This document shows positions 5,700-14,199 of a stretch of DNA of 26,497 nucleotides, piece by piece. The position numbers and the translations under genes are program-made. Source of the DNA: a virus. The notes under the pieces are model-generated. The model saw nothing but the letters and a program-made list of their open reading frames with translations, was not told the origin of the DNA and ran no database searches. The stretch lies in IMG/VR virus record IMGVR_UViG_3300032284_002211, positions 1 to 26,497 of that record; one strand, 5' to 3'. Position 1 is the stretch's first letter, and each line of letters begins with the position of its first letter.

Positions 5700-5707
5700 T
5701 ATTTATA
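5700..5707 (-). promoter_or_regulatory. T4-type late promoter element TATAAATA upstream of gp18
   Basis: An exact TATAAATA (minus strand, 5707 to 5700) lies in the 83-base gap between the small zinc-binding protein gene and gp18, 38 bases before the gp18 ATG. It is likely to drive gp18 and gp19 together. Confidence 0.75.
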
Positions 5708-5976: not shown

Positions 5977-7626
5977 TTATCTGTAATCCCACATATATTG
6001 CATATCTCCATATTCATCTACGTGCCATCTATCTCCGCTCTCATCTACAAAACTTTCTCCAGAATCTAGTCCATCGCTCATAAATCCAAAAGGAGCCATA
6101 TCTTGTTCAATTTGATTTTTCTGTTCTTCATAAATTCTCTTACGGACATCATTGTCCGTCATTTCTTTAAAATAAGGTTGTGCAATTAACCAAGAAAAAA
6201 TTACCAAACACATTGCAAGGTCATCATTGCAACCTTCTTCCGCTTCAAATGAATTTGATTTTTGAATAAAAGTTGTCAACTCACTAATAGTTTCGTAGTC
6301 TTTTACAATTAACTTATCATCTTCAATCAGAGTTTTGAGATTTAAGCATCCAATTTTTTTGACAGTTTTGGACATCTTAACTCCCATTTGCGATTTCTTT
6401 CCAGAAAATCCTTGTCCGACTAATTGACCAGCACGACCTCTCATTGTACACATAAGGATATTGTCGTATTCCAAATCAAAGTGGAGAATTTGACCTACTT
6501 GCTCTCCAATATCATTGACTTCTACTAACACATAAGCTTTATTATATGCAGTCGCTACATCTTTAATGATGCTTGGAAACAACATTGGTTTTATTTGATT
6601 ATTCCTATATTTTGCAACCAAACGATACGGAAAAGTTGTAGTGTCACAGACAGTAAATGCCGAATAATCTTTTTCAACTCCACGAGCAACGTCAACTGTT
6701 ACCACATAATTATGATCTTTTTGTGGTTCTTCATAAACATCTAATCCAGCACTTCTCGTAATTGGATCATCATATACCAAGGATGTAAGTTTTGATGCAG
6801 AAATTAAAGTATCAACAGAACCCAAAAATTCGCAAAGGTGTTCTGCTTTAAATTGTTCTTCACTAGTATTTGCAATTGTCTGTTGTTTCCACTTCTCATC
6901 TCTACCGGGAACCTCTGACCAATGAACTGCAGTCGCAACAAATTGACTTTTACTCCTCTCAGCATCGTGCCACATTCTATAGAAGTGGTTCATACCTTTG
7001 GGGGTAGAAACAATAATTACCTTTGTGTTTTTACCAGAAGAAATTGTAGGATAAACAGAAGCGAAAAAGTCATCTGCAATATGATTTGGAACGAACGCAA
7101 ATTCGTCCAAAAAGATAATATTGAATGTCATACCACGAACAGCGGATGCTGAAGTAGATGCAGCAAGTATCTTGGATCCGTTCTCAAGTTCTAAAGAACC
7201 TTTATTCCAAGATACGATACCTTGTTGCATCCACTTAGGTAAATTTTCATAAGACAATTGGAGTCTACTTAGAATTTCTCTGGAAGTTGATGCTTTGTTT
7301 GCTAGAATACCAATGTTTACATTGTCATTAAACAAAAGGTAGTGTAATAGGTAAGATACTACAGTAGTTGTCTTTCCAACCTGTCTAGGCATTTTGCAGA
7401 TATTAAATCTGTTCTTATGGAAATTATTAATTAATTTTTCTTGGAAGGGCCATATACCAAAGTTTACTAATCCTTCATCAACGTTAACGATTTTGATATA
7501 TTTTTTCGTAAAATAGACAGGATCATTTTTGCACTTGATAAATTCAAGTACTTGTTCTTCTGTAAATTCTACAGCTACATTAGCTTTCTTTAAATTGGGA
7601 TTACCAAGATATACCTGATCAGACAT
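5977..7626 (-). CDS. gp17: Terminase large subunit (DNA packaging ATPase/nuclease)
   Basis: Motor that pumps concatemeric DNA into the prohead through gp20 and cuts it at the end of packaging. The 549-residue product (T4: 610) has a Walker A variant MPRQVGKTTT (79-88), Walker B with catalytic Glu IIFLDE (170-175) and the coupling motif VSTPKG (206-211). The C-terminal RNase H-like nuclease has D312 in VDVARG, E369 in VEVND and the acidic pair D468/D469 in GCNDDLAM. All key residues are present, so the enzyme looks intact. It follows a 57-residue protein gene by 9 bases; no strong Shine-Dalgarno is seen at its ATG, which suggests coupling. Unlike T4, it is not next to gp16 but 2.8 kb away from it. 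Confidence 0.97.
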   Translation of the reverse strand: MSDQVYLGNPNLKKANVAVEFTEEQVLEFIKCKNDPVYFTKKYIKIVNVDEGLVNFGIWPFQEKLINNFHKNRFNICKMPRQVGKTTTVVSYLLHYLLFNDNVNIGILANKASTSREILSRLQLSYENLPKWMQQGIVSWNKGSLELENGSKILAASTSASAVRGMTFNIIFLDEFAFVPNHIADDFFASVYPTISSGKNTKVIIVSTPKGMNHFYRMWHDAERSKSQFVATAVHWSEVPGRDEKWKQQTIANTSEEQFKAEHLCEFLGSVDTLISASKLTSLVYDDPITRSAGLDVYEEPQKDHNYVVTVDVARGVEKDYSAFTVCDTTTFPYRLVAKYRNNQIKPMLFPSIIKDVATAYNKAYVLVEVNDIGEQVGQILHFDLEYDNILMCTMRGRAGQLVGQGFSGKKSQMGVKMSKTVKKIGCLNLKTLIEDDKLIVKDYETISELTTFIQKSNSFEAEEGCNDDLAMCLVIFSWLIAQPYFKEMTDNDVRKRIYEEQKNQIEQDMAPFGFMSDGLDSGESFVDESGDRWHVDEYGDMQYMWDYR

Positions 7627-7813: not shown

Positions 7814-9640
7814 TTACTTTTGAATGACTACAATCGGTGCATTTGGATCTGCTGGAGTTGGGTAATAACTTAATACTCTTGCGCCAGGATAGATCTTTTG
7901 AATTTGATTATCTACTTCCATTTTAGAAGGTCTTTTGGAGGAACCAAAAAATAACTGTACCTTCATTGGAGGTTTACTTCTCCAAGAAAACATTATAGTA
8001 TAGACATTTCCAGAAGATTGTAGTCTTTGATAGTCTTCTGTTGTTAATTGTCCGGGTTGAATTATTGATTCCTCATATTTGAGAGATGGTTTAGACCACT
8101 TAGGACCAGCAAGTTTTCCCTGTGCAGCTTTTTGTTCTCCGGGATTATTGGTTCTAGTTGCAAGAGTTTCAATTTTTTTTTGTCTTAATGCCTTTTTTGT
8201 ATCCTGTGATGTATGACTTATTTCAAAACTTTTAGATTCGGGCATATTCGTTGGATGAACGGTAGCAATACTAAATTCTTTTGGTGACAACTCTATTGGA
8301 TGAGAGAACATCCTCCAATATTTTTCTCCATACTTACACTCCGAAGCTTTTTCGCCTTTTTGACACATTGGACAATATCTGATTACTCCATCATGAAAAT
8401 GAATTTTCTTTTCATGTGATACAACTGGATTATCTAAGTCATCATTTTCACTATAATCTGTATTTTCACTTACAGATTTCCAACCACCACCTGCTTTTTT
8501 ATATTCCTTTGCTGCCCAACCATTTGCATAAGCACTTGGATATACGTCAAATTTTGATTTTGCTCTCGCTTTCATACGAGACCAAAGTGAAGGATTTGTT
8601 GGCACATTTTTTTCTTCAATATATTCTTCTTTAATTTTATTAGATACCATGATTGGTGCTTCACCTTTACCAGATCTATCAGATATCGGATCCTGTTTTC
8701 TCTTTCTCTTTACGGCATTTGCAATTGCCTTCGCACCCCCTTGAGAACGCAATTGTTTTGCTTTCTCTTTGCTCAGACACTTTGGCTTCGCTTCGTTTGG
8801 ATTCTCTCTTGCACATTTTCCAATTCTTTCACCTTTAGTATTATATCTATCCCATCCACCACCACCAACTCCACCTTCATCATCTTTTCCAAACCAACGG
8901 CGAAGATCTTCCTCCATATTTGTGAAGCCTTTGAATTTATCATCGGTTCCTTTAATTAAATCAGTTATTCTTGCAAAAAGATTGCCGTCTGCATCTAATA
9001 TATCAACATTTTCTTCTACTTCTACATCTTTATATTTTTTATGAGATTTCTTAGCACTCGCTTCCATCTTTTTAAGACGAGTATAATAATCTGGAATTTC
9101 ATCAAGATGTTGAAGTGCAATATCCATTGCAGTATCTTTATCTGTTACGTGTTCATGTTCAATCTTGATACCCATATCAAGTTGATTTTGAACAAATGAT
9201 ACATCTAATCTATGTTTTTTTGCAATTTGATCCACTGAATGATGTGACTTCAATGCCTCATCAAGTTCAACATCTTCTTTTACTTTTTTCTTTTTTCCTT
9301 GACAATGTGCTCTCTGAGAAAACCCTTTGGGGTGATCACAATCTATAGATCTCTTATATTTTTCCGACCACTCTTCTTTTGTAGTTTTAGTTGTTTCACT
9401 TTCTCCACTATCAATATAATCAGCAACTGTATCAATATAATCTGCTGCTTTGGTAATCTTTGATTGAATCCAAGCTTCAAGATCACCCTCACCTTTAAGA
9501 TGTCTCATTAATCTAGAAATTGCTGCTTGAGCAGTTTTCAATTCAGATCTTGCCATAGAGAACTCATAATCCTCTTGGATTGAATCAATGATTTGAAGGT
9601 CAGAAAGAATTGACCACTCCCTGAAACTGAGTTTACTCAT
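7814..9640 (-). CDS. Mosaic multi-module protein, function unknown (putative virion or internal protein)
   Basis: A 608-residue protein built from short modules. Residues 28-80 form a helical block (ARSELKTAQAAISRLMRHLK..EAWIQSKITKAADYI). Residues 95-115 carry C101-H103..H112-C113 (DCDHPKGFSQRAHC). Residues 134-194 (DMGIKIEHEHV..AMDIALQHLDEIPDYYTRLKKME) resemble DUF5661. Residues 262-320 (WDRYNTKGERIGKCARENP..KPKCLSKEKA) resemble DUF5872. Residues 353-388 hold FDVYPSAYANGWAAKEYKKAGGGWK. A CPMC pair is at 423-426, and a beta-rich C-terminal domain covers 533-607 (VYTIMFSWRSKPPMKVQLFF). I recall these modules as recurring, separately or combined, in marine T4-like phages; family names are from memory. 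It lies between the terminase genes, and a late promoter-like TCTAAATA lies 27 bases upstream. No enzymatic motif was found. Confidence 0.85.
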   Translation of the reverse strand: MSKLSFREWSILSDLQIIDSIQEDYEFSMARSELKTAQAAISRLMRHLKGEGDLEAWIQSKITKAADYIDTVADYIDSGESETTKTTKEEWSEKYKRSIDCDHPKGFSQRAHCQGKKKKVKEDVELDEALKSHHSVDQIAKKHRLDVSFVQNQLDMGIKIEHEHVTDKDTAMDIALQHLDEIPDYYTRLKKMEASAKKSHKKYKDVEVEENVDILDADGNLFARITDLIKGTDDKFKGFTNMEEDLRRWFGKDDEGGVGGGGWDRYNTKGERIGKCARENPNEAKPKCLSKEKAKQLRSQGGAKAIANAVKRKRKQDPISDRSGKGEAPIMVSNKIKEEYIEEKNVPTNPSLWSRMKARAKSKFDVYPSAYANGWAAKEYKKAGGGWKSVSENTDYSENDDLDNPVVSHEKKIHFHDGVIRYCPMCQKGEKASECKYGEKYWRMFSHPIELSPKEFSIATVHPTNMPESKSFEISHTSQDTKKALRQKKIETLATRTNNPGEQKAAQGKLAGPKWSKPSLKYEESIIQPGQLTTEDYQRLQSSGNVYTIMFSWRSKPPMKVQLFFGSSKRPSKMEVDNQIQKIYPGARVLSYYPTPADPNAPIVVIQK

Positions 9641-9665: not shown

Positions 9666-10442
9666 TTATTTAGATAGATTGTAGAGTTCATGATCAATTT
9701 TATAGAGTTCTGAAAATTTTGGATTATTCTCACAATAAGTTTCAAACATTTCTTTGCAGAAATTTAAGTTTTCTTTTTTATCAGAGTTATTTTCTGTGGA
9801 GTTAATTTTCTCCAAGGTTATATCTTCTTCAATAAAATTTGAAATTTTTTCTTCCAAATCATTTCCAAATCTTATGAATGAAAGGGAAAATCCATTTATG
9901 ATTAAATCTAATGAAATCCCTGAAAATTGTGGACAAGTATGGAGATCAAAAATAAATTTATCTTTTTTTAAGTTATCTACAATATATTTTTGGGGGATTT
10001 TTTTTAAGTATTGATCTATTCCTATTTTGTTTTTTCTAGTCATATATTCATTTAATCCTGATATCCAAGCAGACTTTACATCTCGGACTACTATAAATCC
10101 TTTATAATTTTTGATATAAAAATCAAAATTATTTTCAAAAAATTCTATTCTATCATCATAAAATGCAAAAAAAGAACTTTGGTTAGTCAAACATTTTGTT
10201 ATTGATGTTCCCGCACATTTAGCTGTTGGTACATAGATTATTTTTTTCTCTGAAGATTTGTAAAAAATATAAAGATCATTTCTTGTCCATATTCCATCAT
10301 TGTATTGAAAGTCTTTTTTATCTATTAACTCTCCATTTGAAGTTAAACTTTTGTCTCTAAGTACCTTATATAAATCGGTACAATATACGTCTATTAAGTT
10401 TTCATAATCATCAATATCCTTTTTAGCCAATATTAACGTCAT
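9666..10442 (-). CDS. Sulfotransferase-like protein
   Basis: A 258-residue protein with the two signatures of PAPS-dependent sulfotransferases. The 5'-phosphosulfate loop is YVPTAKCAGTS (70-80), and the 3'-phosphate-binding segment IVVRDVKSAWISG (117-129) has R120 and S128. A later HTCPQ at 168-172 and LSFIRFGNDLEE at 188-198 recall the H-PQ and rFExL landmarks of the carbohydrate sulfotransferase (family 2-like) group. No signal peptide or membrane segment is seen, so it would act in the cytoplasm. The start overlaps the end of gp16 by 20 bases and has its own AAGGA 10 bases upstream (10457-10453). The gene looks more AT-rich than its neighbours, suggesting later acquisition. The substrate (fibre, host glycan or metabolite) is unknown. 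Confidence 0.75.
   Translation of the reverse strand: MTLILAKKDIDDYENLIDVYCTDLYKVLRDKSLTSNGELIDKKDFQYNDGIWTRNDLYIFYKSSEKKIIYVPTAKCAGTSITKCLTNQSSFFAFYDDRIEFFENNFDFYIKNYKGFIVVRDVKSAWISGLNEYMTRKNKIGIDQYLKKIPQKYIVDNLKKDKFIFDLHTCPQFSGISLDLIINGFSLSFIRFGNDLEEKISNFIEEDITLEKINSTENNSDKKENLNFCKEMFETYCENNPKFSELYKIDHELYNLSK
9667..9674 (-). promoter_or_regulatory. Possible late promoter variant TCTAAATA
   Basis: TCTAAATA (9674 to 9667, minus strand) differs from TATAAATA at one base. It lies 27 bases before ATG 9640, the same spacing as the exact late promoters. It overlaps the end of the sulfotransferase-like gene. Confidence 0.4.
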
Positions 10443-10857
10443 TATTTAAATTTCCTTTCAAAAATTTTTGTAGTTCTGAAGTTGAACCTACAAATACCGC
10501 ATTATTAGTAACAGTAGTTGGACCACCTTTATCTTCTTTCTTAAGATCCTTCATTTTTTGTTGAAGATCTAAAAGTTTATCTGTAACATCTCCAACATTT
10601 TTAATAAGTTGTCCAGCAACTTCATATGCCCTTGGACTATCACTTTCTTGTGCCAATTCAAGAATTCCATTGATTGCTTCTTGACCCTTTTCTACAAGAG
10701 AATATAGATTACCTCTTGTATATTCATAGTCCTTATCAATTTGACTTTGAGTATCTTTTAATTTTTCAATAATCTCATTTGGTTCTTTTTTGACAATCTC
10801 CTTTTCTATAGGAGTTGTCTCAATATCTAAAGCATTGTCAATAGATTCAAAGTCCAT
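10423..10857 (-). CDS. gp16: Terminase small subunit
   Basis: DNA-recognition and regulatory subunit of the packaging motor; in T4 it forms rings and stimulates the gp17 ATPase. The 144-residue product (T4: 164) has the central helical pair expected for gp16. Residues 42-75 (DYEYTRGNLYSLVEKGQEAI..ILELAQES) are followed by SPRAYEVAGQLIKNVGDVTDKLLDLQQKMKDL, then TVTNNAVFVGSTSELQKFLKG near the C-terminus. The N-terminus is acidic and disordered-looking. Its ATG overlaps the gp15 stop by one base (TAATG), so the two are co-translated, and its end overlaps the start of the sulfotransferase-like gene. It is separated from gp17 by 2.8 kb of accessory genes. Confidence 0.9.
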   Translation of the reverse strand: MDFESIDNALDIETTPIEKEIVKKEPNEIIEKLKDTQSQIDKDYEYTRGNLYSLVEKGQEAINGILELAQESDSPRAYEVAGQLIKNVGDVTDKLLDLQQKMKDLKKEDKGGPTTVTNNAVFVGSTSELQKFLKGNLNNDVNIG

Positions 10858-11934: not shown

Positions 11935-11942
11935 TATTTAGT
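11935..11942 (-). promoter_or_regulatory. Possible late promoter variant ACTAAATA upstream of gp15
   Basis: ACTAAATA (11942 to 11935, minus strand) matches TATAAATA at six of eight positions and overlaps the gp14 stop. Its distance of 29 bases to ATG 11906 equals that of exact elements elsewhere in the window, which is the main support. Confidence 0.3.
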
Positions 11943-14164: not shown

Positions 14165-14196
14165 AAAAAAATACCCCTAGTCTTCTAAGGGTATTT
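14165..14196 (-). terminator. Hairpin plus T-run ending the giant fibre transcript and masking the gp13 ribosome site
   Basis: On the minus strand, AAATACCCTTAG (14196-14185) pairs with CTAGGGGTATTT (14180-14169) around the loop AAGA, with one G-T wobble. Seven Ts span 14171-14165. This has the form of a Rho-independent terminator for transcripts coming from the fibre gene, whose stop (14225) is 28 bases upstream. The gp13 Shine-Dalgarno AGGGG (14178-14174) is in the 3' arm. Confidence 0.65.
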
Positions 14197-14199
14197 ATA
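14192..14199 (-). promoter_or_regulatory. T4-type late promoter element TATAAATA upstream of gp13
   Basis: An exact TATAAATA (14199 to 14192, minus strand) lies 28 bases before the gp13 ATG. By T4 spacing the start would be near 14186, at the base of the hairpin's 5' arm, so late RNA would lack that arm. It probably drives gp13 and gp14. Confidence 0.75.

Follow-up and report, generated by a model that had tools for sequence, protein, structure and literature searches.

The window analysed here is a virus record of 26,497 bases whose structural genes are nearest to those of T4-like cyanophages (60-80% DNA identity), and Synechococcus phage S-SCSM2R is the best record for these surrounding structural genes. 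On the minus strand the genes run in the order fibre, gp13, gp14, gp15, gp16, a sulfotransferase-like gene, a gene for a 608-residue protein, gp17, a gene for an endonuclease-VII-like protein of 76 residues, gp18, gp19 and gp20. The sulfotransferase-like gene (9666..10442, minus strand, 258 residues) and the gene for the 608-residue DUF5661 protein (7814..9640, minus strand; Pfam E 2.2e-16) thus lie between the small terminase subunit gp16 (10423..10857, minus strand; phrog_445, E 2.8e-55) and the large subunit gp17 (5977..7626, minus strand; Terminase_6N, E 3.3e-27). A survey of gp16 junctions showed that the 608-residue protein is related to the gene that usually follows gp16 in many relatives. 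This large post-gp16 gene (7814-9640 in the window and its counterparts in loci L058-L137; DUF5661 and others) is a mosaic, in which segments match those of relatives and their order and number have changed. A fibre-like protein of 3502 residues is also encoded in the window, and no sugar-pathway gene was identified near the sulfotransferase-like gene within the 26-kb fragment.

The reading frame begins with an ATG at 10442, is intact over 258 codons and overlaps the end of gp16 (10423) by 20 nt, exactly as the original prediction had placed it. That prediction also described the gene as more AT-rich than its neighbours. This holds for overall composition (GC 0.248, against 0.30-0.36 in the neighbours), and foreign codon usage was rejected as its source, since GC3 (0.189) falls within the range of the neighbours (0.145-0.26). 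Because GC3 is normal and most relatives are likewise AT-rich (GC 0.20-0.30), the apparent oddity is a family property of a protein rich in Lys, Asn, Ile and Phe, and does not point to a recent foreign source.

Profile searches of the window protein against Pfam, PHROGs, NCBIfam and PDB sequences gave no convincing match; weak matches to defensin-like, CP12 and ribosomal L10 profiles, like those among PDB sequences, were attributed to chance. In particular, Pfam PF03567 (Sulfotransfer_2) gave no match at E 1, its curated cut-off not being reached, and PF13469 (Sulfotransfer_3) was absent among the matches, again short of its cut-off. A tblastn search found one isolate homologue, an S-SCSM2R protein annotated "sulfotransferase" (E 6e-11, over 73%). 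A first scan of viral contigs with the window sequence alone recovered no relative; the alignment of these two sequences opened up the family, and alignment-guided scans of IMG/VR then yielded 32 loci. Together with S-SCSM2R these gave 20 distinct relatives besides the window protein, a family of 21 sequences in which the window protein shares 27-37% identity with the main relatives and 20% with the outlier L045. Some relatives are recognised by Pfam: those of L003/L010 score 24.1 bits against PF03567 (cut-off 22), that of L044 likewise passes the curated cut-off, and the cut-off was exceeded in three of the five searched records carrying relatives and in none of 14 control genomes. The family assignment proposed originally is thus reached through the relatives, the window protein itself going unrecognised by direct profile search. 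Because its own score fails the Pfam cut-off, we assign it by sequence to an S-SCSM2R-type phage sulfotransferase-like family and not to PF03567. Profile-profile comparison with the HIPRTGG-type phage sulfotransferases, a clear and paralogous family, was weakly positive (E 0.002, probability 14%; control 0.67). Two scans of cellular genomes found no relative, though the peptide patterns used were tight and may have missed a cellular source. In nine close pairs of relatives, with the window sequence lying outside these pairs, dN/dS was 0.08-0.23, which argues that the family is functional. The deposited sulfotransferase CDS of S-SCSM2R (L001:5869-6525) begins at Met72 of a 218-residue frame and omits the PAPS 5' loop (IYIPIDKCASNS), so that the true gene is probably longer than the deposited one.

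Both PAPS-binding signatures that had been read from the window sequence are present. The 5' signature, IIYVPTAKCAGTS, includes Lys75, Thr79 and Ser80, the Lys and Ser/Thr residues of the 5'-phosphosulfate loop of PAPS-dependent sulfotransferases; the predicted loop occupies residues 74-80 (A-K75-C-A-G-T-S80; 10203..10223, minus strand), and Lys75 is found in all 21 sequences and Ser80 in 20. The 3' signature, FIVVRDVKSAWISG, has Arg120 and Ser128 at the spacing of 8 expected of a 3'-phosphate site, within a predicted motif at residues 120-129 (R120-D-V-K-S-A-W-I-S128-G; 10056..10085, minus strand). A further family signature, KFIFDxHTxPQ, appears in the window protein as KFIFDLHTCPQ (residues 162-172; 9927..9959, minus strand), with Asp166 and His168 as candidate catalytic or structural residues. 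Alignment of the 21 sequences showed that Lys75, Arg120, Ser128, Gly129, Asp166, His168 and Asp250 are constant, so the Lys, Arg and Ser on whose conservation the original prediction had staked itself are kept by every member. The stretches around Lys75 and His168 were covered by two of the scan patterns, and their conservation was partly selected for; Arg120 and Ser128 lie outside every search pattern. Moreover, L041, which has no match to the Lys-loop pattern, and L045, which has none to the His pattern, were recovered through the pattern that each does match, and both keep Lys75 and His168. The window protein is the sole exception at two positions of the RxPxxRWxSG signature, Pro122 and Arg125 being present in 20 of the 21 members and replaced here by Val122 and Ala125.

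Structure prediction pointed the same way. A model built from a two-sequence alignment was useless (pLDDT 38); the one built from a ten-member alignment was of moderate confidence (mean pLDDT 64.8, pTM 0.69). When the latter was compared with the PDB by VIA-align, all 50 matches listed were sulfotransferases, StaL and SULT enzymes included, and heparan 3-O-sulfotransferases led the matches listed, the best being 3-OST-5 with a middling Z of 6.4 (173 residues, 4.7 Å). Foldseek against the PDB was weak (best E 0.33), with sulfotransferases in its top rows, and the best BFVD match was a Caudovirales sulfotransferase-domain protein (E 1.4e-5). The predicted model therefore supports, with moderate confidence, the sulfotransferase alpha/beta fold anticipated for this protein, and a different fold, which would have spoken against the original prediction, did not emerge. 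All in all, the homology, the conserved motifs, the fold and the purifying selection seen in the family bear out the description of the product as sulfotransferase-like.

The relatives occupy varied genomic contexts. Those of L003/L010, L020, L028 and L036 lie in a metabolic island next to speD, which encodes S-adenosylmethionine decarboxylase, and have thyX- and phoH-like genes close by; the S-SCSM2R copy adjoins psbA/psbD; those of L026 and L039 are clustered with genes for an AMP-binding enzyme and for a SPASM radical-SAM protein; and those of L040 and L041 lie in clusters with DegT sugar aminotransferase genes, joined in L040 by an NAD-dependent epimerase. The thyX, phoH and L039 neighbours were named by eye from their sequences. 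No relative was found at a gp16 junction or on a locus that also carries homologues of the structural genes of the window. The L026 and L039 clusters (L026:6046-12100 and L039:3241-9126) contain, besides the AMP-binding enzyme and the sulfotransferase, two SPASM-like proteins and a small membrane-like protein, and possibly represent a phage-borne modification or metabolite pathway. In L040:1397-12046 and L041:6857-12368, repeated family-25-glycosyltransferase-like genes accompany the aminotransferase genes around the sulfotransferase. Two records carrying relatives also hold a second, different sulfotransferase of the HIPRTGG type (L051:1498-2115 and L056:1138-1752), in both cases near a fibre- or structural-protein-like gene; this second type may be the more promising candidate to sulfate the virion.

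The layout of promoter-like motifs bears on when the gene would be expressed. The described cyanomyovirus late promoter is NATAAATA/TATAAATA (PMC2984593), and the positions of the heptamer CTAAATA suggest that it is a variant of NATAAATA. It occurs on the minus strand at 9667..9673, where it overlaps the stop codon of the sulfotransferase gene and lies 33 nt ahead of the 608-residue gene, and at 11935..11941, 35 nt upstream of gp15; further late-promoter-like motifs lie on the same strand at 14192-14199, 5700-5707, 2500-2507 and 745-752. Such a motif precedes gp20, gp18, the 608-residue gene, gp15, gp13 and the fibre gene by 33-45 nt, whereas the 60 nt ahead of the sulfotransferase gene, gp16, gp17, gp14, gp19 and the endonuclease gene contain none. 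The motif words are no commoner in the window than shuffles predict; it is their position that is telling, and it offers a putative map of the late transcription units of the window. Since a motif precedes gp15 and none precedes gp16 or the sulfotransferase gene, the latter would be read through gp16 from the presumed promoter of a gp15-gp16-sulfotransferase transcript. Late expression together with virion proteins, as had been proposed, is thus likely.

Comparison of gp16 junctions showed how unusual this placement is. Of 80 other gp16 loci, 76 have a late-promoter motif between -35 and +30 relative to the stop codon of gp16, compared with 2.9% of random 65-base stretches from the same loci. 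In these phages CTAAATA looks like a regular variant of NATAAATA, and it usually overlaps the gp16 stop codon. The family profile found no copy of the sulfotransferase gene in the 80 other loci, 59 of which have at least 900 nt downstream of gp16, the remaining loci being weaker tests. Among 81 junctions, that of the window alone has the gene placed after gp16 and ahead of the next promoter motif, and the comparison called for by the original prediction thus found a placement private to this phage. In the usual layout the motif lies at the gp16 stop, before the next gene; in the window it lies at the sulfotransferase stop. The last sulfotransferase codons (CTATCTAAATAA; CTA TCT AAA TAA) are those that end gp16 in the relative L059 (GAT CTA TCT AAA TAA), and ATCTATCTAAATAA, around the motif at 9667..9673, matches the gp16 3' end of that locus. 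Alignment also showed that the C-terminal tail of the window gp16 differs from those of its relatives, a new tail being encoded by the opening bases of the insert. Because the motif lies at the sulfotransferase stop and CTATCTAAATAA matches the gp16 end of L059, the gene appears to have been inserted between gp16 and the late promoter, and by this insertion it would join the gp15-gp16 late transcript. Several sulfotransferase relatives (L010, L030 and L036) also end in TCTAAATAA, so short homology was available for exchange, and we infer from these sequences a route via short homology at the stop/promoter site. The junction is an example of a late cassette added at the gp16 stop/late-promoter site with the downstream late gene unharmed. 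The gp16-gp17 interval holds differing extra genes from cyanophage to cyanophage; that of S-SCSM2R contains an NblA gene (phycobilisome degradation; L046:13659-13826).

The reading that we prefer, with a probability of about 0.72, is that the gene encodes a PAPS-dependent, carbohydrate-type (Sulfotransfer_2-like) sulfotransferase, made late from the gp15-gp16 transcript after insertion at the gp16 stop, and that a glycan is its most likely acceptor. The enzyme would transfer sulfate from host PAPS to a hydroxyl, most likely on a sugar of the host envelope, of exopolysaccharide or of a phage-made glycan. In this reading the 5'-phosphosulfate would be bound by Lys75 and Ser80 and the 3'-phosphate by Arg120 and Ser128, and the candidate base would be His168 or Asp166. 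Production would fall late in infection. The gene would have entered at the stop codon of gp16, directly ahead of the late promoter, and would have altered the end of gp16. Glycan sulfation is put forward as the most likely role because the fold resembles carbohydrate sulfotransferases and some relatives lie in a sugar context. Val122 and Ala125 count against this reading, as the activity of the window protein itself could be weakened.

The acceptor might instead be a small host metabolite or lipid, the gene then being an auxiliary metabolic gene. This is a tentative alternative that draws on the metabolic island in which most close relatives adjoin the S-adenosylmethionine decarboxylase gene, and on the group adjoining the AMP-binding enzyme and SPASM radical-SAM genes. 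It is opposed by the polysaccharide 3-O-sulfotransferases that are the best fold neighbours among the PDB matches listed, by the relatives beside sugar aminotransferase and epimerase genes, and by the recognised Pfam family, Sulfotransfer_2: known members of that family act mostly on carbohydrates.

We consider it unlikely that the protein keeps the fold and no longer moves sulfate, or moves another group, as a decaying passenger at a hot spot. It is the only member of the 21 without Pro122 and Arg125, it escapes direct profile recognition and it is a single copy among 81 gp16 junctions. However, the frame is open over its 258 codons, Lys75, Ser80, Arg120, Ser128 and His168 are intact, and the relatives are under purifying selection. 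At the site that corresponds to residue 125, cytosolic SULT enzymes are not known to carry an Arg.

Sulfation of a virion component, which the original prediction had drawn as one option from the late-module placement, would explain why the gene lies among late structural genes; the acceptor would be the fibre, the sheath, a capsid decoration or a glycan carried by one of these. In favour of this, the gene would be read with gp16 from the gp15 late promoter, and the window also encodes the 3502-residue fibre-like protein. We regard this as distinctly improbable: the relatives lie by speD/thyX/phoH-type genes, psbA/psbD or sugar clusters, none being found at the gp16 junction or with homologues of the window's structural genes, and insertion at the stop/promoter site accounts for the place. 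As relatives occupy other contexts and insertion explains the position, the late-module argument carries little weight. In a bolder and equally doubtful version, a sugar sulfotransferase has become part of the packaging and structural late operon of a T4-like cyanophage, as a cassette acquired via short homology at the gp16 late-promoter/stop site, and at the time of assembly the phage uses it to sulfate its own virion or the emerging host surface; if true, the short-homology route would be a general way in which such phages add late genes with the next promoter intact. A chance open frame or assembly artefact, which the lack of a direct profile match might suggest, is refuted by homologues at 27-38% identity across most of the length, by a stop-free run whose probability is ~4e-12 at the composition of the gene, and by clean junctions and conserved motifs.

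Cyanophages and other marine phages are already known to encode sulfotransferases, whose role in phages has been stated to be unclear, and the S-SRM01-type enzyme is reported as Sulfotransfer_3 (PMC10580990); in the literature searched we found no paper on the S-SCSM2R-type sulfotransferase-like family. Other phage families (P-SSM7 E3SP23, ACG-2014f, S-T4 and the S-SRM01 type) share a phage-borne sulfotransferase fold with the window protein, several matching its model structurally, but tblastn found no sequence relationship to it. The heparan sulfate 3-O-sulfotransferases (PDB 3bd9, 1t8t and 1zrh), the best structural neighbours among the matches listed (Z 6.0-6.4, ~170 residues), are in contrast eukaryotic enzymes with known glycan substrates and share 7-12% identity with it. 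With PF03567 the window protein agrees in the order of 5' loop, 3' motif and acidic/aromatic C-terminal ending, although only its relatives reach the cut-off. Closest is SSCSM2R_276 of S-SCSM2R (PQ898602.1), homologous at 28% identity and carrying the same invariant Lys/Arg/Ser/His set; unlike the window gene, it lies beside psbA/psbD and thioredoxin, away from gp16, which in that phage directly precedes the large hypothetical gene, whereas in the window the sulfotransferase gene stands between the two. These comparisons tie divergent unnamed proteins into one family with invariant PAPS residues and place one member under likely late transcription, which makes the choice among virion, host surface and metabolite testable. 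The window gene is thus a divergent member of the known phage sulfotransferases, in a new position.
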